DNA from: Janthinobacterium lividum
Lineage (GTDB): Bacteria; Pseudomonadota; Gammaproteobacteria; Burkholderiales; Burkholderiaceae_D
Assembly (NCBI RefSeq): GCF_023509035.1
Contig: NZ_CP075583.1
Location: 2,542,001-2,606,000 of the forward strand
Length of the DNA: 64,000 nt
Reading direction: 5' to 3'
This document shows positions 11,097-41,368 of this stretch, piece by piece; positions within the stretch are counted from its first letter, which is position 1, and each line of letters opens with the position of its first letter. Below the pieces are notes generated by a model. That model ran no database searches, was not told the origin of the DNA, and was given only the letters and a program-made list of their open reading frames with translations. The position numbers and the translations under genes were made by a program.

Positions 11097-11774
11097 ATGA
11101 GCGATTTCAATACGATAGTCCAGACCGTTGCGGTGTACCTGGTGCCGGTGCTGTTTGCCATTTCCCTGCATGAGGCGGCGCACGGCTACGCCGCCCGTTA
11201 TTTCGGCGACCCCACGGCTTCGAACGAGGGCAGGTTGAGCCTCAATCCCATCCGGCATATCGATCCTTTCGGTACGATCTTGCTGCCCTTGATACTGTAT
11301 TTCACGATCCAGGTACCGTTTGGCTATGCCAAGCCGGTGCCCGTCGATTTCAGCCGCCTGCGCAATCCGAAGAAGCAGATGGCCTGGGTGGCGTTTGCCG
11401 GCCCTGGCGCCAATTTCGTCATGGGCCTGGGCTGGATGATCGCCTTTGTCGTCCTCAGCATCCTGCCGCCGACGGAAATGGGCATGTTTTTCCGCAAGAT
11501 GGCGGGCGCCGGCGTCAGCGTCAATGCGGCCATGTTTGTCTTTAACCTGATTCCCGTGCCGCCACTCGATGGCGGACGCATCATGACGGGCTTGCTGCCG
11601 ATGCAGCTGGCGCGTCCTTACGCCAGCATCGAGCGCTACAGCCTGTATGTGTTCGGCGCCCTGGTGCTGCTGATGTACACGGGCATCTTGAACCGCGCCT
11701 TGCTGGCGGCGATCGAATTTGTCATTGGTATTTTTGTCACCCTGGTCACGCCCCTGACGGCCCTGTTGACTTGA
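11097..11774 (+). CDS. Site-2-protease-family membrane metalloprotease (M50)
   Basis: 225-aa integral membrane protein with the zinc motif HEAAH (residues 22-26) in the first hydrophobic region and the second metal motif PVPPLDGGRI in a later helix; about five to six membrane helices. Family members cleave substrates within the membrane; the bacterial short form seen here has no PDZ domain and mostly no known substrate. It follows the YciO-type gene, a common betaproteobacterial order. The mRNA may be leaderless (see the extended -10 just upstream). Confidence 0.9.
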   Translation: MSDFNTIVQTVAVYLVPVLFAISLHEAAHGYAARYFGDPTASNEGRLSLNPIRHIDPFGTILLPLILYFTIQVPFGYAKPVPVDFSRLRNPKKQMAWVAFAGPGANFVMGLGWMIAFVVLSILPPTEMGMFFRKMAGAGVSVNAAMFVFNLIPVPPLDGGRIMTGLLPMQLARPYASIERYSLYVFGALVLLMYTGILNRALLAAIEFVIGIFVTLVTPLTALLT

Positions 11775-11816
11775 TGCCCGCAACTGGAAGTACGCAAATA
11801 ATTGATGGAAGTACCG

Positions 11817-12389
11817 ATGCAAGTAATTGAACCAACAATAGAAACTGAAGCGATTTCGGGCTGGGTACGCCGCTGGGCACCCCTGATCCCGGGCGGCGAA
11901 GTGCTGGACCTGGCGTGCGGCGCAGGCCGTCATGCGCGCCACCTGGTGAGCCTGGGCCACCCCGTGATCGCGCTCGACCATGATCCTGAGATGCTGGAAA
12001 AGGCGGCCGGCACGGGCATCACCACGTCGCTGGTGGACCTGGAAGCGCCGGGCGCCGTGTGGCCGTTCGCCCCCGGCCGCTTTGCCGGCATCGTCGTCAC
12101 TAATTATCTGCACCGGCCGCTGCTGGAAGCCATGATTGCCAGCCTGGCGCCCGATGGCGTGTTGCTGTACGAAACGTTCGCTGAAGGCAATGAGCAATTC
12201 GGCAAGCCGTCGAACCCTAAATTCCTGCTGAAGGAAGGCGAAATGCTGACCTGGGCGGTGCAGCACGCCTTGCGTGTGGTAGCGTATGAGGATGGGCGCG
12301 TGGAACAGCCAAAAGCTGCTCTGGTGCAACGAATTTGTGCCGTCCGGCCGGATTTTCCACGGTTGGCAGCCCTGCTGCCGACGTTTTGA
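11817..12389 (+). CDS. Class I SAM-dependent methyltransferase
   Basis: About 190 aa. The SAM-binding motif I is VLDLACGAGRHARHL (about residues 29-43), with the acidic loop ALDHDPEML following and YETFAEGNEQFGKPSNP near the C-terminal third, a pattern seen in TehB/UbiE-like small methyltransferases. The substrate is unknown. The start is ambiguous: an ATG at 11817 has GGAAG five bases upstream and is preferred, but an ATG at 11805 or TTG at 11802 in the same frame is possible. A near-duplicated 20-25 base segment (TGGAAGTAC...AATTGA) spans the start region. Confidence 0.85.
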   Translation: MQVIEPTIETEAISGWVRRWAPLIPGGEVLDLACGAGRHARHLVSLGHPVIALDHDPEMLEKAAGTGITTSLVDLEAPGAVWPFAPGRFAGIVVTNYLHRPLLEAMIASLAPDGVLLYETFAEGNEQFGKPSNPKFLLKEGEMLTWAVQHALRVVAYEDGRVEQPKAALVQRICAVRPDFPRLAALLPTF

Positions 12390-12473
12390 GCGGCCATACT
12401 ATGTCAGAATGCACCACAGGCGCGGGCTATCCGCTACAATCGTTGTTTTATTTATCGGCGCTATAAACTTACT

Positions 12474-13352
12474 ATGATCAAGGGCAGCATTGTAGCAATC
12501 GTCACCCCGATGCACGCAGACGGCAGTCTGGACTTTCCAGGTCTGCGCAAGCTGATCGACTGGCATATCGCCGAGGGTACGGACGGCATCGTCATCGTTG
12601 GCACGACGGGCGAATCGGCAACAGTCAGCGTGGAAGAACACTGCGAACTGATCCAGTTGACCGTCGAACATGCCAAGGGACGCATTCCTATCATCGCCGG
12701 CGCCGGAGGCAACTCCACGGCCGAGGCCATCAAACTGACGCGCTATGCGAAAGAAGCGGGCGCCGATGCTGTCTTGCAAGTGGTGCCGTACTACAACCGT
12801 CCTACCCAGGAAGGCATGTACCAGCACTTCAAGGCCATCGCCGAAGCCGTCGACATTCCCGTCATCCTGTACAACGTGCCTGGCCGCACGGTTGCCGACA
12901 TGAGCAACGAGACCATCGTGCGCCTGTCCGCCATCCCGAATATCGTCGGCGTGAAAGATGCGACCGGCAATATCGGCCGTGGCATCGACCTGCTGCGCCT
13001 CGTGCCGGCCGACTTCGCCGTGTACTCGGGCGATGATCCGACGGCCATGGCGCTGATGTTCTGCGGCGGCCACGGCAACATCTCTGTGACGGCCAACGTC
13101 GCGCCGCGCGCCATGCACGAACTGTGCGTCGCAGCCATGGCGGGCGAGCGCGCCACGGCGATTGCCATCAATAACAAAGTTTTTCCTCTGCACCAGAAAT
13201 TGTTTGTCGAGCCCAACCCGGTGCCCGTCAAATGGGCGCTGGCCGAAATGGGCCTGATGCCAGCCGGCATACGCTTGCCACTGGTACCGCTGGCTGAAAA
13301 TTGCCATGCCACCGTGCGCGATGCCTTGCGCGATGCTGGCATCCTGTCTTAA
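12474..13352 (+). CDS. dapA: 4-hydroxy-tetrahydrodipicolinate synthase
   Basis: First committed enzyme of lysine/diaminopimelate synthesis, condensing pyruvate with aspartate semialdehyde. The 292-aa TIM barrel has the Schiff-base lysine at 161 ([11 protein letters not shown]), Tyr133 in ILYNVPGRT and the GTTGES motif (43-48). Length equals that of E. coli DapA. There is no clear ribosome binding site (AAACTTACTATG); TACAAT at about 12434 or TATAAA at about 12463 may serve as -10. It is followed by bamC, the usual pairing. Confidence 0.97.
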
Positions 13353-13432
13353 GCCGAACTTTAAGCCCGGGCTTGACCAGTCCGGACCTTCCCTGATTCC
13401 AGCTGCTACTTAGCTTCTTATCCAGTTACGAC

Positions 13433-14626
13433 ATGACTAATTGCAAGAAAACCCAATCGGCGCCTGCCACCATCGCCGTCCGCGGCATCGTCATCGGCGC
13501 CGTCGCAGCCAGCCTCGCGGGCTGCGGCATGATCAGTTCGGTAGTCGGTGGCGACAAGGTCGACTACAAGTCGGTCAAGAAAGCCAGCACCCTGGACGTG
13601 CCGCCTGACCTGACGCAATTGCAGCAGGACAACCGTTACTCCTTGCCGGATGCAAAAAACGGCGTGGCCACGGCTTCCGGCTACAACGCGCAGCGCAATG
13701 CCACGGCCGGCGCGCCCGTCATCGTGGGCGCCGACGGCGTGGTGGGTGTCGTGCCTGTCACGGCAGGTGGCGTGAAGGTCGAGCGCGCGGGCAACCAGCG
13801 CTGGCTGGTCGTCAAGCAGTCGCCTGAAGTGCTGTGGCCGCAACTCAAGCAATTCTGGGAAGATTCGGGCTTTACCGTCGCCATCGACCAGCCCACGGCT
13901 GGCATCATGGAAACCGAGTGGAACGAAAACCGCGCCAAGTTGCCGCAAGACTTTATCCGCAACACCATCGGCAAGGCTTTCGATTCGATGTACTCGACCG
14001 GTGAAAAAGACAAGTTCCGCACCCGCGTGGAACGTCTGGCCGATGGTTCGACCGAGATCTACATCAGCCACCGTGGCGTGGAAGAGGTCGTCACGGGCCG
14101 CGACAAGGAAACCACCACTTGGACCGCGCGTCCGAACGATCCGGGCCTGGAAGCGCAATTCCTGGCCAAGCTGATGACGCGCCTGGGTGCGGCCAGCGAC
14201 GATGCGCAAGCGAAGACAGCCGTCGACGGCGCCATCGTGCAGCCGCTGCACGCCAAGCTGGTCGGCGACGCCGCCACGCCGGCGCGCGGCATCGAAGTCG
14301 ATGAAGGTTTCGACCGCGCCTGGCGCCGTGTCGGCCTGGCGCTGGACCGCGTTGGCTTCACCGTGGAAGACCGCGACCGCACGCAAGGCACGTATTTCGT
14401 GCGTTACGTCGATCCGGACGCGGTCAAGAAAGATGGTTTCTTCTCGAAACTGTTCAGCTGGGGTTCGTCGTCCGACAAGGACAAGGAAGCGCAGCGCTAC
14501 CGCGTCCTCGTCAAGGCCGGCAATGGTTCGACCAGCCTGGTCAGTATCCTCAGCAACGAAGGCCAGCCGGACGTCTCGCCAGTGGCCGAGAAGATCCTGG
14601 GCTTGCTGAACGAGCAGCTGAAATAA
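13433..14626 (+). CDS. bamC: Outer membrane assembly lipoprotein BamC
   Basis: Lipoprotein component of the BAM complex that inserts beta-barrel proteins. The 397-aa precursor has a long positively charged N-region and a lipobox SLAGC with the acylated Cys at 31; the flexible segment DYKSVKKASTLDVPPDLTQL that contacts BamD follows, then two helix-grip domains (about 100-215 and 255-395). It is coupled in position to dapA (80-bp gap) as in many proteobacteria and closed by a terminator. Confidence 0.95.
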   Translation: MTNCKKTQSAPATIAVRGIVIGAVAASLAGCGMISSVVGGDKVDYKSVKKASTLDVPPDLTQLQQDNRYSLPDAKNGVATASGYNAQRNATAGAPVIVGADGVVGVVPVTAGGVKVERAGNQRWLVVKQSPEVLWPQLKQFWEDSGFTVAIDQPTAGIMETEWNENRAKLPQDFIRNTIGKAFDSMYSTGEKDKFRTRVERLADGSTEIYISHRGVEEVVTGRDKETTTWTARPNDPGLEAQFLAKLMTRLGAASDDAQAKTAVDGAIVQPLHAKLVGDAATPARGIEVDEGFDRAWRRVGLALDRVGFTVEDRDRTQGTYFVRYVDPDAVKKDGFFSKLFSWGSSSDKDKEAQRYRVLVKAGNGSTSLVSILSNEGQPDVSPVAEKILGLLNEQLK

Positions 14627-33304: not shown

Positions 33305-33330
33305 AAAAAAGGGCGGCCCGCAGGCCGCCC
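33305..33330 (-). terminator. Terminator of the cphA'-cphA operon
   Basis: GGGCGGCC / GGCCGCCC stem with a short loop followed by six T on the minus strand, about 25 bases past the cphA stop. Confidence 0.92.
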
Positions 33331-33351
33331 TAGTATGCCGTCAGGCTGTAC

Positions 33352-35922
33352 TTACGCTTCGGCGACGCGCTTGGCGATGTGCGCCAGCGCTTCTTCCACC
33401 TGGTCGATCAGGATCAGGCACAGATCGCCTTCGTTCAAGCGCGCCAGGGCCTTGTCGATGGCGACGAATTCGCCGTTGATTTCATCGATATGGCTGGTGC
33501 GCTTGGCGCCGTTCAAGCCCTGGCGCAGCAGTGCCACGACTTCGCCGTCGGCGCGGCCGCGCTGGCACTGGTCCTGGTACAGCAGCACGTCGTCGAAGGC
33601 GGCGCCGAGGATTTCCGTCTGCTGGCGAATGTCTTCGTCGCGGCGGTCGCCGGCGCCGCTGATGACCACCGAACGGCGCTTGGCCGGCATGCTTTCCACG
33701 GCCTGCACCAGCGCCAGGATGGCGTCCGGATTGTGGCCATAGTCGGCGATCAGGGTAGCACCCTTGTAATCGAAGACGTTGAAGCGGCCCGGCGCATTGT
33801 CGGCTTCATTGGCAAAGGTTTTCAGGCCCAGCGCGATGGTTTTCCAGTCCAGGCCGACGGCCCAGGCGGCGGCCAGCGAAGCCATGACGTTGTCGACCTG
33901 GAAGCCGATGGCGCCGTTGCGCGTGATCGGCACTTGCGACAGCGCGATTTCATGGCGGTCCTTGCCCTGTGCCGCGACCAGTTTGCCGTCTTCCACGTAC
34001 ACCACGCGGTTGCCTTGTGCGCGGTGCGTGGCCATCACGGGATGCGTCTTGTCGGCGGCGAAGAAGGTCACCGTGCCGCTGCAATTCTTGGCCATGCGGG
34101 CCACGGCCGGGTCGGTGGCGTTCAGGACGGCTACGCCGCTGTCGGCCACGTTCTGCACGATCACGCGTTTCAATACCGCCAGGTCTTCCACGGTGGTGAT
34201 GTAGTTCAGGCCCAGGTGGTCGCCCGCGCCGATGTTCGTCACCACGGCGACCTGGCAGCGGTCGAAAGCCAGGCCTTCGCGCAGCATGCCGCCACGCGCC
34301 GTTTCGAACACGGCCGCGTCCACGTCAGGGTGCAGCAGCACGTTGCGCGCGCTGCGCGGGCCGCTGCAGTCGCCGCTGTCGATCTGGCGCCCTTCGATGT
34401 ACACGCCATCGGTATTCGTCATGCCCGTGCGCAGGCCAGAGGTCGTCAGCAGGTGGGCGATCAGGCGCACGGTGGTGGTCTTGCCGTTGGTGCCCGTAAC
34501 GGCGACAACGGGAATGCGGCCATCGTCGCCCTCGGCGAACATGGCGGCGATGATGGCTTCACCCACGGGGCGCGGCTTGCCGAACGATGGCGCCAGGTGC
34601 ATGCGCAGGCCCGGTGCGGCGTTCACTTCGACGATGCCGGCGTTCTGCTCTTCCAGCGGTTTTAAAATGCTTTCAGAAACGACGTCCACGCCGCAGATGT
34701 CCAGGCCTACCATGTGCGCGGCCGCGACGGCGCGCGCCGCCACTTCCGGGTGCACGTCGACGGTGACGTCGGTGGCCGAGCCGCCCGTCGACAGGTTGGC
34801 GTTATTGCGCAAAATCACGCGCTGGCCCACGGGCGGCACGGATTCGGCCACATAGCCCTGCTTGGCCAGGCTGGCCAAGGCGATGTCGTCGAAGCGGATT
34901 TTCGTCAGCGAGGTGGCGTGGCCGCTGCCGCGGCGCGGGTCGAGGTTGACCTGGTCGACCAGTTCGCGCACCGTGTGCTGGCCGTCGCCCACCACTTGCG
35001 GCGGGTCGCGGCGGGCGGCTGCCACCATCTTGTTGCCGATGACGAGCAAACGGAAATCGTGGCCCGGCAGATAGCGCTCGACGAGAATGTCGTCGCGGAA
35101 TTCCTGCGCCGCGAGGAAGCCGGCCGTCAGCTGTTCGCGCGTGGTGACATTGACGGTGACGCCCTTGCCCTGGTTGCCATCCTTCGGCTTGACGACGACG
35201 GGCAGGCCGATCTCGCAGGCGGCGGCCCAGGCGTCGTCCGCGTCGATGGCGACACGGCCTCGCGGCACCGGCACGCCGGCCGAGTCCAGCAGCTTCTTGG
35301 TCAGTTCCTTGTCTTGCGCGATGGCTTCGGCGATCGCGCTGGTGCCGTCCATTTCGGCGGCCTGGATCTTGCGCTGCTTGCTGCCCCAGCCGAACGTCAC
35401 CAGGCTGCCTTCGGTCAGGCGGCGGAACGGGATGTTGCGGGCCACGGCGGCGTTGACGATGGCGCCGGTGGAGGGGCCCAGGCGCACGTCTTCATCGAGT
35501 TCCTGCAACTGGTGCAGGGCGCCGGCCAGGTCGAACGGCGCATCGTCGAGCGCGGCGCGGCACAGTTGCTGCGCCAGTTCCAGGGCCAGGCGGCCGACGG
35601 CTTCTTCCGAGTATTCGACGACGACCTGGAAGATACCCGTTTCCAGGGTCGATGTGGTGCGGCTGAAGGTGACGGGGCAGCCGGCTTGCGCCTGCAGGCC
35701 CAGCGCCGCCAGTTCCAGCACCTGCGCCATTGGCGCGGCGTTGTAGTTGCCCAGCGGTTGCAGCGGGCTCAGTTGCGGAAAGCGCGCGCGCAGGCGGGCT
35801 TCGAAGCCGGGCAGCTGGGCGATGTCGAGTTCCTGCGTAGTGCAGGAAACAATGGCTTCCACGGCGGTGTCGTGGCTCCAGAGGTTAGGGCCACGCAAGG
35901 CCCGTACGCGAGATACTTCCAT
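33352..35922 (-). CDS. cphA: Cyanophycin synthetase CphA (M-domain intact, N-domain motif lost)
   Basis: Makes multi-L-arginyl-poly-L-aspartate from Asp and Arg with ATP. 856 aa in three parts: N domain (1-about 160), ATP-grasp G domain (about 170-465; VVVKPKDGNQGKGV 242-255, VEVNAAPGLRMHL 431-443) that adds Asp to the backbone, and Mur-ligase-like M domain with intact P-loop TGTNGKTT (476-483), HNPDA (730-734) and GAGDRRDEDI, which adds Arg. In the N domain the HxxEH motif seen in the partner CphA' is replaced by AQVLEL, so the primer-producing site described for this domain is probably dead here. Second gene after CphA', 57 bases apart. Confidence 0.95.
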   Translation of the reverse strand: MEVSRVRALRGPNLWSHDTAVEAIVSCTTQELDIAQLPGFEARLRARFPQLSPLQPLGNYNAAPMAQVLELAALGLQAQAGCPVTFSRTTSTLETGIFQVVVEYSEEAVGRLALELAQQLCRAALDDAPFDLAGALHQLQELDEDVRLGPSTGAIVNAAVARNIPFRRLTEGSLVTFGWGSKQRKIQAAEMDGTSAIAEAIAQDKELTKKLLDSAGVPVPRGRVAIDADDAWAAACEIGLPVVVKPKDGNQGKGVTVNVTTREQLTAGFLAAQEFRDDILVERYLPGHDFRLLVIGNKMVAAARRDPPQVVGDGQHTVRELVDQVNLDPRRGSGHATSLTKIRFDDIALASLAKQGYVAESVPPVGQRVILRNNANLSTGGSATDVTVDVHPEVAARAVAAAHMVGLDICGVDVVSESILKPLEEQNAGIVEVNAAPGLRMHLAPSFGKPRPVGEAIIAAMFAEGDDGRIPVVAVTGTNGKTTTVRLIAHLLTTSGLRTGMTNTDGVYIEGRQIDSGDCSGPRSARNVLLHPDVDAAVFETARGGMLREGLAFDRCQVAVVTNIGAGDHLGLNYITTVEDLAVLKRVIVQNVADSGVAVLNATDPAVARMAKNCSGTVTFFAADKTHPVMATHRAQGNRVVYVEDGKLVAAQGKDRHEIALSQVPITRNGAIGFQVDNVMASLAAAWAVGLDWKTIALGLKTFANEADNAPGRFNVFDYKGATLIADYGHNPDAILALVQAVESMPAKRRSVVISGAGDRRDEDIRQQTEILGAAFDDVLLYQDQCQRGRADGEVVALLRQGLNGAKRTSHIDEINGEFVAIDKALARLNEGDLCLILIDQVEEALAHIAKRVAEA

Positions 35923-35954
35923 AATTAAACCGTAATCCTGTTGTGTTCTTGTGG

Positions 35955-35972
35955 GCCCGGCCGAAGCCGGGC
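35955..35972 (-). other. Intercistronic UUCG-tetraloop hairpin between cphA' and cphA
   Basis: On the mRNA strand the sequence GCCCGGC-TTCG-GCCGGGC folds into a 7-bp GC stem with a very stable UUCG loop, no T-run after it. It sits between the two synthetase genes and could set transcript stability or the CphA':CphA ratio. Confidence 0.7.
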
Positions 35973-35979
35973 TCGAGTC

Positions 35980-38157
35980 TTAGTTGCCGATGCAGCCAGG
36001 GGCCGCGTCGAAGGTGCGCAGGCCGGCGCAGATAAGGTCGACGGGCAGGTTCAGGGCCCAGGCGGCGGCGGCGACTGCCAGCACGCTGTCGACATTGCCG
36101 GCCGTGGCCGGTTTCAGCAGGTCCAGGCACAGCAAGACCGTTTCGATGCCGCCTTCGGCCAGCACGATGTGGTTGCCGCGTACGAACACGGCGCGCTGGC
36201 CGGCGGCCAGTTGCGCCGCGATGGCGGCCAGGCTGCCATCCTGCGCATACAGGGTCACGCTACCGTCGCACAGCTCGGCCAGTTCCAGCACGTGGGCGTT
36301 GGCAGCGTTCAGCACGGCCACGCCCGTTGGTACCACCACGTCGACCTGGCTGCGCACAGCCTTGTACAGGCCCGCTTCATCCAGCACGTCGAAATCCTTG
36401 ACGCTATCGAGGCTGCCCATGTCCGTGACGATGCCGATCTGGCACTTGTCGTAGGCCAGGCCTTCGGCCAGGATCATGCGCGGATTGCTCTCGAACAGGG
36501 CCGTCTGCACGGTGCGGTTGAGCAGCAGGCGCTGGCCCGCGTCCCAGTTCACGCAATCGTTGCTGACGACGCGGCGCTGGTCCAGGTACATGCCTTCGCT
36601 GCAGACGGCGCCCGTATGCAGGCCCGACAGGTTGAGCAGTTTGCACAGCATGCGCACGATCAGGCTGGCGCCGCGCGTGCCCGTCACGCCGATCAACGGA
36701 ATGCGGCCCGTTTCCTCGGGGGCGAACAGGTGGTCGACGATGGCCGCGCCGACAGGGCGGGGCTGGCCCACGCCCGGCTTGATGTGCGCCAGCAGGCCGG
36801 GGCTGGCATTGACTTCGATGATGGCGCCGCGCTGCTCTTCCAGCGGACGCGTGATGTCGGTGGTGACCAGGTCGATGCCGGCGATATCCAGGCCTACCAC
36901 GCGCGCGGCCAGCAGGGCCGCATGCACGACGGACGGATGCACGTCGTCCGTGACGTCGATGGCCACGTTGCCGTTCGGCTGGATCAGCACTTTCTGGCCG
37001 GCCTGCGGCACGGACAGGGCGGTCATGCCCTGGCGCTGCAGTTCCAGCACGATTTCACCCGATTCATGCGGCTTGACGGTACCCAGCGGGAAGTCTTCGC
37101 CTTCGCCGCGGCGCGGGTCGGTATTGATCTGCGCGTTCACCAGTTCCAGCACGGTGGAGACGCCGTCGCCGTCGACCCACAACGATTCGCCCTTGGCGGC
37201 CGCGATCAGCTTGTTGCCGACCACGAGCAAGCGGTGTTCGTCGCCCGTGATGAAGCTTTCCACCAGCACGGCCGAGCTGTCGCCCTTGCGCGCGGCCAGT
37301 TCGTAGGCCGCTTTCACGTCGGCTTCCGTCATCAGGTTCAGCGACACGCCGCGGCCATGGTTGCCGTCATACGGTTTGACGACGACGGGCACGCCGATGT
37401 CTTGCGCTTCTTCCCAGGCTGCCTCGGCGCTGCGCACCAGGCTGCCTTCAGGGACGCGCACGCCGCACGATTTGAGCAGGAATTTGGTCAGGTCCTTGTC
37501 GCTGGCGATGCCTTCGGCAATCGCGCTGGTGCGGTCCGTTTCGGCCGTCCAGATGCGGCGCTGCGCGGCGCCGTGGCCCAGCTGCACCAAATTGCCGTCA
37601 TTCAGGCGCAGCGAAGGGATGCGGCGCTCGGTGGCCGCATCGACGATGCTGGCCGTGCTCGGGCCCAGGCAGCGCGAATCGACCATGTCGCGCAGGGGCG
37701 CCAAGGCCGCTTCCAGATCGTAGGCTTCATCGTTGATGGCAGCCATCAGCAGTTCGCGCGCGGCGGCCAGGGCGGCGCGGCCAACGTGCTCTTCACGCGT
37801 ACGGAAGGCCATCTTGTAGACGCCGCGCTGGCTGGTCGAGCGCGTCTGGCCGAAGCCCGTGCGCATGCCTGCCAGGTTTTGCAGTTCCAGTACCACGTGC
37901 TCGAGGATGTGGGCCGACCACGTGCCTTCGCGCAGGCGCTCGAAAAAGCCGCCCCGTTCGCCCACGCCGCAGCGGTGCTCGATCATGCCGGGCAGCCACG
38001 CCACCAGGCGCTCGTACAGTCCGGGCAGGGTATTGGATGGGTAATCTTCCAGTTCGCCGATGTCGACCCAGGCTTCAATCACCGGGCGATAAGTCCAGAT
38101 GTTGGGGCCGCGCAAGTGGGTGACGCGGGAAAATTCGATGTTCTTCTTCTTGATCAT
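35980..38157 (-). CDS. cphA': Cyanophycin synthetase-like CphA' (N-domain intact, M-domain degenerate and truncated)
   Basis: 725 aa. The N domain keeps SAHILEHVVLELQNLAG (about 81-97), including the HxxEH residues linked to the hydrolytic primer-making site of cyanophycin synthetases. The G domain is intact (VVVKPYDGNHGRGV 258-271, IEVNASPGLLAHIKPGVG about 447-464). The M domain is defective: the P-loop TGTNGKTT is TGTRGASL (492-499) without the Lys, and the chain ends at LRTFDAAPGCIGN, lacking the Mur C-terminal lobe with the HNPDA motif. It is therefore unlikely to add Arg by itself. First gene of the operon; divergent from the ABC transporter. Confidence 0.92.
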   Translation of the reverse strand: MIKKKNIEFSRVTHLRGPNIWTYRPVIEAWVDIGELEDYPSNTLPGLYERLVAWLPGMIEHRCGVGERGGFFERLREGTWSAHILEHVVLELQNLAGMRTGFGQTRSTSQRGVYKMAFRTREEHVGRAALAAARELLMAAINDEAYDLEAALAPLRDMVDSRCLGPSTASIVDAATERRIPSLRLNDGNLVQLGHGAAQRRIWTAETDRTSAIAEGIASDKDLTKFLLKSCGVRVPEGSLVRSAEAAWEEAQDIGVPVVVKPYDGNHGRGVSLNLMTEADVKAAYELAARKGDSSAVLVESFITGDEHRLLVVGNKLIAAAKGESLWVDGDGVSTVLELVNAQINTDPRRGEGEDFPLGTVKPHESGEIVLELQRQGMTALSVPQAGQKVLIQPNGNVAIDVTDDVHPSVVHAALLAARVVGLDIAGIDLVTTDITRPLEEQRGAIIEVNASPGLLAHIKPGVGQPRPVGAAIVDHLFAPEETGRIPLIGVTGTRGASLIVRMLCKLLNLSGLHTGAVCSEGMYLDQRRVVSNDCVNWDAGQRLLLNRTVQTALFESNPRMILAEGLAYDKCQIGIVTDMGSLDSVKDFDVLDEAGLYKAVRSQVDVVVPTGVAVLNAANAHVLELAELCDGSVTLYAQDGSLAAIAAQLAAGQRAVFVRGNHIVLAEGGIETVLLCLDLLKPATAGNVDSVLAVAAAAWALNLPVDLICAGLRTFDAAPGCIGN

Positions 38158-38624: not shown

Positions 38625-40895
38625 ATGACAACTGAACTGAGTGTTCCTGCAACAACTATTCCCCTCACTTCGCTGCCGGAACACTGGCTGGCGGAAGTGG
38701 AGAGCAACCTTTCTCCAGGGGAGAACGTTTTAAGTAGCGTTGAGGTTGACCTCGATGCGCGATTACGTTTCACAAAAGGCATAATTGTTGTCACCGAGAA
38801 GCGTTTGCTGGCCCGTTCGCCGGGCGATACCGTCTGGAAAAGCTGGTCTTTCCGCCCTGGACTGCGCCTGACGCACCATGACCACGCCGGTGTCGGCCAC
38901 CTGGAACTGTTCGACGACCATGGCCGCCTGGCCTCGTGGCGCTTTACCCTGGGACAGAACCTGCACGCCATCCGCGTGCTGGAACAGTTCGTCGAGCGCC
39001 TCGACAGCCACCTGACGGGTCAGCCCGTGCTGGAAGCGGAGCAGGAAGTGTGTCCCAGCTGCAAGGCGCCGCTGGAACCCGAGCAGGAAGAATGTCCGAT
39101 CTGCGCCAAGGTCCTGTACACGCCGCCATCGACCTGGACCCTGTTCCGCCTGTGGCGCTTTGCCCATCCCTACCGTGGCCAGCTGGCGCTGGGCTTCATG
39201 CTGATGCTGCTAAGTACGGCTGCGCACATGATTCCGCCCTACCTGACGGCGCCGCTGATGGACAATGTGCTGATTCCGTATCAGAACGGCAAGCATATCG
39301 ATCCATGGCTGGTGGTGTACTACATGAGCGGCTTGCTCGGCTCGGCCTTGCTGGCCTGGCTGCTGGGCTGGGGCAAGACCTATGTGCTGGCCCTGGTGTC
39401 CGAACGCATGGGCGCCGATTTGCGCTCGGCCACGTATGAACACCTGATGAAACTGTCGCTGGAATTCTTTGGCGGCAAGCGCACGGGCGACCTGATGGCG
39501 CGCATCGGCAGCGGCAGCGACCGCATCTGCGTCTTCCTGTCGCTGCATTTGCTCGATTTCGCTTCCGACGTGCTGATGATCATCATGACGGGCGTGATCC
39601 TGTGGTCGATGAATCCATGGCTGGCCATCATGACCCTGGCGCCGCTGCCCTTCATCGCCTGGATGATCCACCTGGTGCGCGACCGTTTGCGCACGGGCTT
39701 TGAAAAGATCGACCGCGTGTGGAGCGAAGTGACCAACGTGCTGGCCGATACGATTCCCGGCATCCGCGTGGTGAAGGCGTTTGCGCAGGAAAAACGCGAA
39801 GCGGCCCGCTTCCGCGACGCCAACGCGCACAACCTGGCCGTCAACGACAAGTTGAACAAGGTCTGGTCGCTGTTCTCGCCTACTGTTTCCTTCCTGACGG
39901 AGATGGGTTTGCTGGTCATCTGGTGCTTCGGCATCTGGCAACTGTCGCGCGGCGAAATCACCGTCGGCGTGCTGACCGCCTTCATCGCCTACAGCACGCG
40001 CTTCTATGGTCGCCTCGACTCGATGAGCCGTATCGTCTCAGTGACGCAGAAATCGGCTTCCGCCGCCAAGCGCATCTTCGACATCCTCGACCACGTGTCG
40101 AGCGTGCCGGAACCGGCGCAACCCGTCAAACTGGACAAAATCGAAGGCAGGATCGATTTGCGCGAAGTCGGTTTCCGCTACGGCAACCGGGCCGTCAACC
40201 GCGGCATCACGCTGAACATCAAGGCGGGCGAGATGATCGGCCTGGTGGGCCACAGCGGTTCGGGCAAGAGCACCCTGGTCAACCTGATCTGCCGTTTCTA
40301 TGACGTGTCGGAAGGCGCGATTTTGCTCGACGGCGTCGACATCCGCTCGTTCGCCGTGTCCGACTATCGCCGCAATATCGGCCTGGTGCTGCAGGAACCG
40401 TTCCTGTTCTTCGGCACCATCGCGGAAAATATCGCTTACGGCAAGCCGCACGCGACACGCCAGGAGATTATCGCCGCCGCGCGCGCCGCGCATGCGCACG
40501 AATTCATCCTGCGCCTGCCGCAAGGCTACGATTCGATGGTGGGCGAGCGTGGCCAGGGCCTGTCCGGCGGTGAACGCCAGCGCATCTCGATTGCCCGCGC
40601 CCTGTTGATCGACCCGCGCATCCTGATCATGGATGAAGCGACATCGTCGGTCGACTCGGAAACGGAAAAAGAAATCCAGAAGGCGCTGGACAACCTGGTG
40701 CAGGGCCGCACGACGATCGCCATCGCGCACAGGCTGTCGACCTTGCACCGGGCCGACCGTCTGGTGGTGCTGGACCGCGGCCAAGTCGTCGAAGTGGGCA
40801 GTCACGATGAACTGATGGCGAAAGAGGGCGCCTATTTCCGCCTCTACGAAGCACAGGCGCGCAACAACGAACTCGCCCTGGATGACAAGGAATAA
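38625..40895 (+). CDS. Cyanophycin-locus ABC transporter (fused permease/ATPase with N-terminal PH-like part and zinc ribbon)
   Basis: 756 aa. N-terminal about 135 residues form a soluble beta-rich PH-like part (LNPGENV-type start, RLRFTKGIIVVTEKRLLARSPGD), then a zinc ribbon with four Cys (CPSC 143-146, CPIC 157-160). A six-helix ABC exporter domain follows (about 175-480) and an ATPase with Walker A GHSGSGKS (542-549), LSGGERQR and ILIMDEATSSVDSETEKEIQKAL. An MsbA-like exporter in build. I recall this family being named for its association with cyanophycin genes; the exact cargo is unknown. Translated in tandem with the DUF1854 gene (2-base gap). Confidence 0.9.
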   Translation: MTTELSVPATTIPLTSLPEHWLAEVESNLSPGENVLSSVEVDLDARLRFTKGIIVVTEKRLLARSPGDTVWKSWSFRPGLRLTHHDHAGVGHLELFDDHGRLASWRFTLGQNLHAIRVLEQFVERLDSHLTGQPVLEAEQEVCPSCKAPLEPEQEECPICAKVLYTPPSTWTLFRLWRFAHPYRGQLALGFMLMLLSTAAHMIPPYLTAPLMDNVLIPYQNGKHIDPWLVVYYMSGLLGSALLAWLLGWGKTYVLALVSERMGADLRSATYEHLMKLSLEFFGGKRTGDLMARIGSGSDRICVFLSLHLLDFASDVLMIIMTGVILWSMNPWLAIMTLAPLPFIAWMIHLVRDRLRTGFEKIDRVWSEVTNVLADTIPGIRVVKAFAQEKREAARFRDANAHNLAVNDKLNKVWSLFSPTVSFLTEMGLLVIWCFGIWQLSRGEITVGVLTAFIAYSTRFYGRLDSMSRIVSVTQKSASAAKRIFDILDHVSSVPEPAQPVKLDKIEGRIDLREVGFRYGNRAVNRGITLNIKAGEMIGLVGHSGSGKSTLVNLICRFYDVSEGAILLDGVDIRSFAVSDYRRNIGLVLQEPFLFFGTIAENIAYGKPHATRQEIIAAARAAHAHEFILRLPQGYDSMVGERGQGLSGGERQRISIARALLIDPRILIMDEATSSVDSETEKEIQKALDNLVQGRTTIAIAHRLSTLHRADRLVVLDRGQVVEVGSHDELMAKEGAYFRLYEAQARNNELALDDKE

Positions 40896-40897
40896 GC

Positions 40898-41368
40898 ATG
40901 GCCAGTACAACTTTTACATTAAGCCGCGACACCTTCGGCAAGCTGGTGATGACGGACGCGGACGGCCAGGTCTTTGAAGGCGTGGCGCCCGTGCGCGCCT
41001 TCCCCATCCAGTCGCCCGACGAAGGTATTTCTCTGGTGCTGGGCAATGGCAAGGAAGTGGCGTGGATCGACCGCCTCGACGCCCTGGCGGAACCGGCGCG
41101 CAGCCTGCTGCAGGAAGAGCTGGAAGGGCGCGAATTCATGCCCGAGATTGCGCGCGTGAAAAGCGTCAGCAGCTTCGCCACGCCATGCACCTGGCATGTC
41201 GATACGGACCGGGGCGAGACGCAATTCGTGCTGAAAGGCGAGGAAGACATCCGCCGCATCGGCGCCACGTCACTGCTGATCGCCGACAACCACGGCATTC
41301 ATTTCTTGATCCGCGATATGTTCAATATCGACAAGACGACGCGGAAAATTTTGGATCGCTTCCTGTAA
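40898..41368 (+). CDS. DUF1854-family protein, partner of the cyanophycin-locus transporter
   Basis: 156-aa soluble protein with the DUF1854 pattern: an N-terminal beta segment (FTLSRDTFGKLVMTDADGQVFEGVAPVRAFPI), GKEVAWIDRLDALAEPARSLLQEELEGREFMPEI, and VKSVSSFATPCTWHVDTDRGETQFVLKGEEDIRRIG, ending in IRDMFNIDKTTRKILDRFL. No catalytic motif is recognised. Starts two bases after the transporter stop, ahead of a terminator, so the two are made together; members of this family are found beside this transporter and cphA genes. Confidence 0.92.
   Translation: MASTTFTLSRDTFGKLVMTDADGQVFEGVAPVRAFPIQSPDEGISLVLGNGKEVAWIDRLDALAEPARSLLQEELEGREFMPEIARVKSVSSFATPCTWHVDTDRGETQFVLKGEEDIRRIGATSLLIADNHGIHFLIRDMFNIDKTTRKILDRFL

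Follow-up and report, generated by a model that had tools for sequence, protein, structure and literature searches.

Predicted division of cyanophycin synthetase active sites between adjacent CphA' and CphA proteins in Janthinobacterium and related bacteria

In Janthinobacterium lividum, two adjacent genes encode cyanophycin synthetase homologues, CphA' and CphA, which by sequence comparison carry between them one set of N-, G- and M-domain active sites, as a sequence-only reading of the same DNA had proposed. The pair likely arose by one ancient duplication followed by a division of labor, in which CphA' would make primers and CphA would add both Asp and Arg. The reading differed on the last point and had given Asp addition to CphA', leaving only Arg addition to CphA. 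The division of sites may explain how Janthinobacterium and many related bacteria start the synthesis of cyanophycin, a nitrogen-storage polymer.

Active sites of CphA' and CphA

The window, the whole stretch of 64,000 nucleotides analyzed, comes from a genome of 6.26 Mb. The two ORFs are located where the sequence-only reading had placed them (Table 1); on the minus strand CphA' comes first and CphA follows after a 57-base gap. Consensus matching found no terminator-like hairpin on that strand between the two genes, and the hairpin after CphA is consistent with a CphA'-CphA operon. A strong G+C hairpin is present at 35952-35975, between CphA' and CphA. It is found in some, not all, of the relatives folded and its form is not conserved among these loci; it could set the ratio of CphA' to CphA. 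A genome-wide search with CphA returned both genes, plus three weak matches at other sites (31, 28 and 18 bits). Among the best 80 of 214 relatives of CphA', the nearest named ones are from Janthinobacterium.

Table 1. Positions in the window of the two synthetase genes, their active-site motifs and the neighboring features
Feature	Position	Strand	Remarks
CphA'	35980..38157	-	725 aa; keeps the N-domain hydrolase site, lacks the Asp pocket in G, has a decayed, truncated M domain
N-domain metal site of CphA'	37897..37971	-	C63 to H87; Cx19HxxEH, motif from PMC9262961
Position of the deleted NLSTGG (Asp-binding loop) in CphA'	36961..36984	-	now reads IQPNGNVA
Degenerate Mur-type P-loop of CphA'	36661..36684	-	TGTRGASL
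CphA	33352..35922	-	856 aa; no N site, retains the G and M residues apart from Gln at position 267
AQVLEL replacing HxxEH in CphA	35710..35727	-	
Asp-binding loop NLSTGG of CphA	34780..34797	-	
M-domain P-loop TGTNGKTT of CphA	34474..34497	-	
HNPDA of M lid, CphA	33721..33735	-	
Terminator-like hairpin and T tail 3' of CphA	33310..33331	-	consensus match only
ABC transporter, 'cyanophycin metabolism-associated' (NF052233)	38625..40895	+	divergent from CphA'
DUF1854 family protein, 'cyanophycin metabolism-associated' (NF052234)	40898..41368	+	

Residue positions were transferred via alignments of CphA' and CphA to solved CphA1 chains, the check that the sequence-only reading had called for. Its calls in the N and M domains were right, and the loss of the Asp pocket had been overlooked. 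Residue roles were taken from PMC9262961 (N site, H267 and D585/H586) and PMC9427784 (G domain). The metal site of CphA' is whole, with C63, H83, E86 and H87 corresponding to C59, H79, E82 and H83 of SuCphA1 and the HxxEH motif reading HILEH; H57, R70 and E87 (SuCphA1 numbering) are likewise kept. In CphA, where HxxEH is replaced as had been noticed, only E82 is left of the four metal-site residues.

The P-loop Lys, HNPDA and GDRRDED served as landmarks of the M domain, as known from Mur ligases. The P-loop of CphA' indeed lacks the lysine present in that of CphA, H586 is missing as well, and both the ORF and the alignment confirm that the chain ends ahead of the M lid with its HNPDA lobe. The P-loop Lys, H586 and the M lid are retained in CphA. 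The ATP-grasp G domain had been assigned to both proteins and is present in both, but that of CphA' has no Asp pocket: R323 is replaced by G, the NLSTGG loop containing S396 is deleted, and R458 is replaced by L. K220, K261, H267, R309, D431 and E450 are all kept in the window CphA'. CphA has every ATP and Asp residue checked in the G domain and every one checked in the M domain, except for Gln at position 267.

CphA scores above the curated cut-offs of both NF010623 (1245.5 vs 877 bits) and TIGR02068 (973.7 vs 850 bits). CphA' exceeds that of the subfamily model NF010623 (979.2 vs 877 bits) and stays under the equivalog cut-off of TIGR02068 (677.6 vs 850 bits). Neither the Asp pocket nor the M active site expected of a CphA1 is present in CphA', which has the Cx19HxxEH motif with H57, R70 and E87 of an SuCphA1-type primer-making hydrolase, both in the window and in 168/168 relatives. 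The dipeptide-polymerizing enzyme CphA2 has no N-site motif (PMC9262961). By this measure CphA', which keeps the motif, is not a CphA2, and CphA is without the motif and retains its M site. Chain 8fxh, presumably a CphA2, scores 198 and 200 bits in the CphA and CphA' alignments, respectively, compared with 628 and 468 bits for the best CphA1 chain.

Conservation and origin of the pair

Loci were collected with CphA' as the query (best 80 of 214 kept) and by searching 399 genomes from the order and 398 from the phylum; 386 of 411 ORFs were analyzed, with 4 weak ones and identical copies removed. A locus counted as a pair if each protein exceeded 680 aa and did not duplicate one counted before; loci L226-L244, in which CphA' is short and cut, were excluded from these counts. 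The resulting 168 pairs (78 from the CphA' query and 90 from the order search) span 26 family labels, where different labels may refer to one family, plus 3 rows without a label. CphA adjoins CphA' in all 81 loci formed by the best 80 of 214 relatives and the window, and both proteins are full-length in 79 of these; the CphA of L022 is in two ORFs and that of L030 is cut by the contig end. The two L022 ORFs, from Janthinobacterium lividum, overlap (11298-13942), reflecting a frame break or an assembly error.

CphA' is upstream of CphA on the same strand in all 168 pairs. H57, C59, R70, H79, E82, H83 and E87 are intact in 168/168 CphA', which makes CphA' a likely source of primers, as had been proposed. 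The N site is complete in none of the 168 CphA, and the Cys-bearing loop (H57, C59) is deleted in every one; three (L196, L201, L209) still have the H, E and H of HxxEH, without C59. In the Asp pocket of CphA', R323 is replaced by G in 163 and by S in 5 proteins, S396 is deleted in all 168, and R458 is replaced by L in 166 and by Q in 2. CphA keeps these three residues in 168/168, together with K220, K261, R309, N394, D431 and E450 as well as K499, D585, H586, the lid His and the lid Arg; position 267 is Gln in 167/168. Since the same pattern is found in all 168 full-length pairs, it did not arise by chance. The many genomes are not independent trials, because the pair represents a single evolutionary event, and the weight of the observation rests on its long conservation.

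The four M residues checked are intact in nine full-length CphA', and at least one is missing in the other 159. The pocket is gone in these nine as well, which suggests that it was lost before the M site decayed. Domain identities were calculated for 56 diverse pairs of the 168 (less than 80% identity in CphA), with borders drawn from TeCphA1 numbering. The mean identities are 0.60 (N), 0.72 (G), 0.69 (M core) and 0.71 (M lid) for CphA, and 0.64 (N), 0.67 (G) and 0.47 (M core) for CphA'. Judged by these values, CphA' is losing its M core, whereas the G domain shows no such decay; 91 of 326 G-domain positions are invariant at 98% or more in these pairs. The site of E215 (SuCphA1 numbering), a residue that in TeCphA1 binds the side chain of the last Arg, is mostly A, S or T in CphA and S, G or T in CphA', and polymer binding or side chains may differ.

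Unsplit relatives were searched with L225, for which the identical record is named Magnetococcales. In the best 120 of 7995 homologues, Planctomycetes are among the other named members, and the N, G and M residues checked are all on one chain in 120/120, except at positions 215 and 267. Gln is found at position 267 in 85 of these 120, so we did not accept Gln267 of CphA as a mark of a dead G domain. On the contig of L225, the unsplit CphA (L246, with its end cut by the contig) is accompanied on the other strand by the ABC transporter (over cut-off) and DUF1854 genes known from the window; no CphA' was found in this draft genome, which has 8% contamination. The ABC transporter and DUF1854 genes are each present in 80 of the 81 loci (best 80 of 214 CphA' relatives and the window), and in 97 and 71, respectively, of 110 order loci with shorter flanks. 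Export of a short polymer or dipeptide by the ABC exporter-like protein is conceivable. In a quick, midpoint-rooted tree of 81 rows, CphA was represented by the window and 28 of 58 diverse loci, and the unsplit proteins by 12 of 52 diverse ones. CphA, CphA' and the unsplit relatives group apart from other CphA1 with an SH-aLRT of 100, and CphA and CphA' each form one side of a branch. The simplest reading would be one duplication, followed by a division of sites inside the same locus type.

The order was also tallied by the family model rather than by CphA', with sites called by alignment. This tally covers 139 loci from the 138 best-scoring of 145 genomes over the cut-off, a set of 145 that counts in the window's genome, and genomes with CphA' alone could be missed by it. 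It contains 124 split pairs, 8 single complete enzymes and 7 loci of neither class. Six of these run into a contig end (L148, L156, L191, L212, L296 and L313); a piece of CphA' is still visible in three of them, and in two of the genomes CphA' is on another contig (G005, G383). L178 has an N-dead CphA with a transposase-like ORF upstream (by eye), and a search of its genome, G358 (draft, 87% complete), found no CphA'; it is either a real exception or an assembly gap. The 8 single complete enzymes belong to one genus code and have all sites on one chain. Some single enzymes have a Cys-His spacing longer than a fixed motif pattern allows. Ten loci were examined beyond the 139. Nine lie outside the order and each encode a single complete enzyme, and the tenth, L255 (648-7934 in G056), has two N-dead CphA with G and M residues intact and no CphA' beside them; a pair is present elsewhere in G056. 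None of the 149 loci examined has an N-intact, Asp-competent CphA beside CphA'.

Proposed mechanism and alternative roles of CphA'

From the sites, their conservation, the gene order and the tree, which come from sequence, we infer the activities, priming in trans and any complex. The ancestor would have been a complete cyanophycin synthetase, a single chain bearing all three sites (N, G and M), that was duplicated once and had its active sites divided. CphA would elongate the polymer unaided, with Asp added at G and Arg at M, and would be unable to make primers. The N-domain metal site of CphA' would cut cyanophycin to yield short primers for CphA. The G domain of CphA' can probably still bind ATP and a chain end, but Asp addition is not expected of it; the M site of CphA' is broken in most loci seen. 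The two genes are encoded together, with CphA' first, probably so that the cutter and the polymerase are made together. The two proteins may assemble via their G domains, and a CphA'-CphA hetero-oligomer is plausible.

The closest published evidence for this mechanism comes from SuCphA1 and TmCphA1 (PMC9262961). SuCphA1 E82Q and TmCphA1 are inactive without primer, and unprimed synthesis returns when N activity is provided in trans; the isolated (solubilized) SuCphA1 N domain lets TmCphA1 work without primer, and an engineered SuCphA1 heterodimer of N-G+M+ and N+G-M- chains produces polymer without added primer. The natural pair has this N-G+M+/N+G-M- make-up by sequence in 159/168 loci. This match suggests that CphA' most likely primes and CphA elongates. 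Several observations count against the mechanism. In the SuCphA1 mixed dimers without primer, all sites on one chain worked somewhat better; TmCphA1 is a known case of an N site lost with no partner; and H267A inactivates SuCphA1, CphA having Gln at this position (PMC9262961). The same source reports the full N motif missing in 17% of an nr70 set. N-dead CphA without an adjoining CphA' also occur in G056 (two) and G358. Wild-type R. eutropha has two homologues and no cyanophycin was observed (PMC11362209), so the product or the conditions may be unusual.

The arrangement first proposed, in which CphA' adds Asp and makes primers and CphA adds Arg, is very improbable. It is favored by the conserved G domain of CphA', with K220, K261, R309, D431 and E450 kept in 168/168 and H267 in 166/168, but R323, S396 and R458 are lost in 168/168 CphA' whereas CphA keeps all three in 168/168. 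With the pocket residues gone, Asp addition by CphA' was rejected. Restriction of CphA to Arg addition does not fit either, as the Asp-site and M-site residues checked are kept in all 168 and only position 267 differs. It is also unlikely that CphA' serves CphA mainly as a pseudo-enzyme subunit with a structural or regulatory task, whose G domain binds ATP and chain ends and whose N-site activity is of little importance. Such a subunit would agree with a G domain about as conserved as the N domain, with its 91 invariant positions, and with the low identity of the M core. The seven N-site residues, however, are invariant in 168/168 CphA'; as 34 of 157 N-domain positions are invariant, seven of seven would be hit at random with a chance of 1.3e-5, a rough guide because the seven were picked as conserved in CphA1 at large. 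A pure primer maker would not account for the conserved G domain or the near-fixed G323 and L458, which hint at an additional, possibly structural or sensing role.

A further proposal, that CphA' is chiefly a polymer-mobilizing hydrolase where cyanophycinase is lacking, with priming as a side effect, seems quite unlikely. A recognized cyanophycinase is present in 2.8% of 903 beta-proteobacterial genomes with CphA1 (PMC10206079, Table 2). The cyanophycinase cut-off (TIGR02069) is passed by 10 of 104 pair genomes (5 above 200 bits) and by all 8 genomes with a single complete enzyme, one narrowly. Against mobilization as the main role, the characterized N-domain activity is slow and endo-type and leaves mainly tetramers (PMC9262961), and a cyanophycinase-model match is present in another part of the window's genome. 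This match (L266, 1294-2394; G000:C1, about 1.83 Mb) has a signal-like N terminus and follows a TonB-receptor-like ORF, both judged by eye, which suggests scavenging of cyanophycin outside the cell and would leave room for CphA' in mobilization. A combined role is doubtful, in which CphA' would be a dedicated cyanophycin endopeptidase subunit that primes synthesis and starts mobilization in bacteria without cyanophycinase, its conserved, Asp-blind ATP-grasp domain acting as a sensor of ATP or chain ends that tips the complex between building and cutting.

Relation to known systems and other loci

Complete CphA1 enzymes such as SuCphA1 (7LG5, 7TXU) consist of the same three domains as the pair proteins. 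The sites of SuCphA1 are on one chain, whereas those of CphA' and CphA are divided between two. Compared with SuCphA1 as described in PMC9262961, Cx19HxxEH is matched in CphA' and the G and M residues in CphA, except for position 267. TmCphA1 from Tatumella resembles CphA in that its G and M sites are active and its N site is lost; unlike for CphA, a partner with an intact N site is not described in the sections consulted (PMC9262961).

The N-domain site and the tandem arrangement of cphA and cphA' have each been described before, separately. Adames et al. are said to have described in 2013 a tandem CphA/CphA' in Ralstonia eutropha H16, with a CphA' lacking much of the 'J-loop'; their work reportedly predates the N-domain site and does not describe the division of sites. 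Two adjacent cphA genes are found in Accumulibacter and other sludge bacteria, where the 'Group 1' cluster has an ABC transporter and no cphB and where Accumulibacter expresses both copies evenly (PMC10687191), and in Sideroxydans (PMC5178258). These tandems are like the pair in gene arrangement, and active sites are not discussed in the available parts of the two sources. The tandem cphA genes of Tetrasphaera perhaps represent an independent split. Our search of the open-access literature found no paper on the CphA/CphA' site division, which may be in print elsewhere.

If true, the division of sites would explain the two adjacent cphA genes in many beta-proteobacteria, and neither gene alone would give efficient unprimed synthesis. 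Nature would have built the very N-G+M+/N+G-M- enzyme that was engineered to study priming, and priming could be removed by deleting one gene. The division is relevant, too, to a further puzzle, namely how the polymer is used by these bacteria when they have no recognized cyanophycinase.

Other arrangements were seen at a few loci. The two CphA genes of L255 are on opposite strands near a cyanophycinase match, and one of the ORFs is 1144 aa long, with about 270 residues ahead of the CphA part. In L249-L252 and L214, a single complete CphA is followed by a protein of 585-618 aa. Residues 199-584 of the one in L250 (4212-5978, minus strand) match the M-domain part of TIGR02068 (477-858), making it a partial CphA paralogue.
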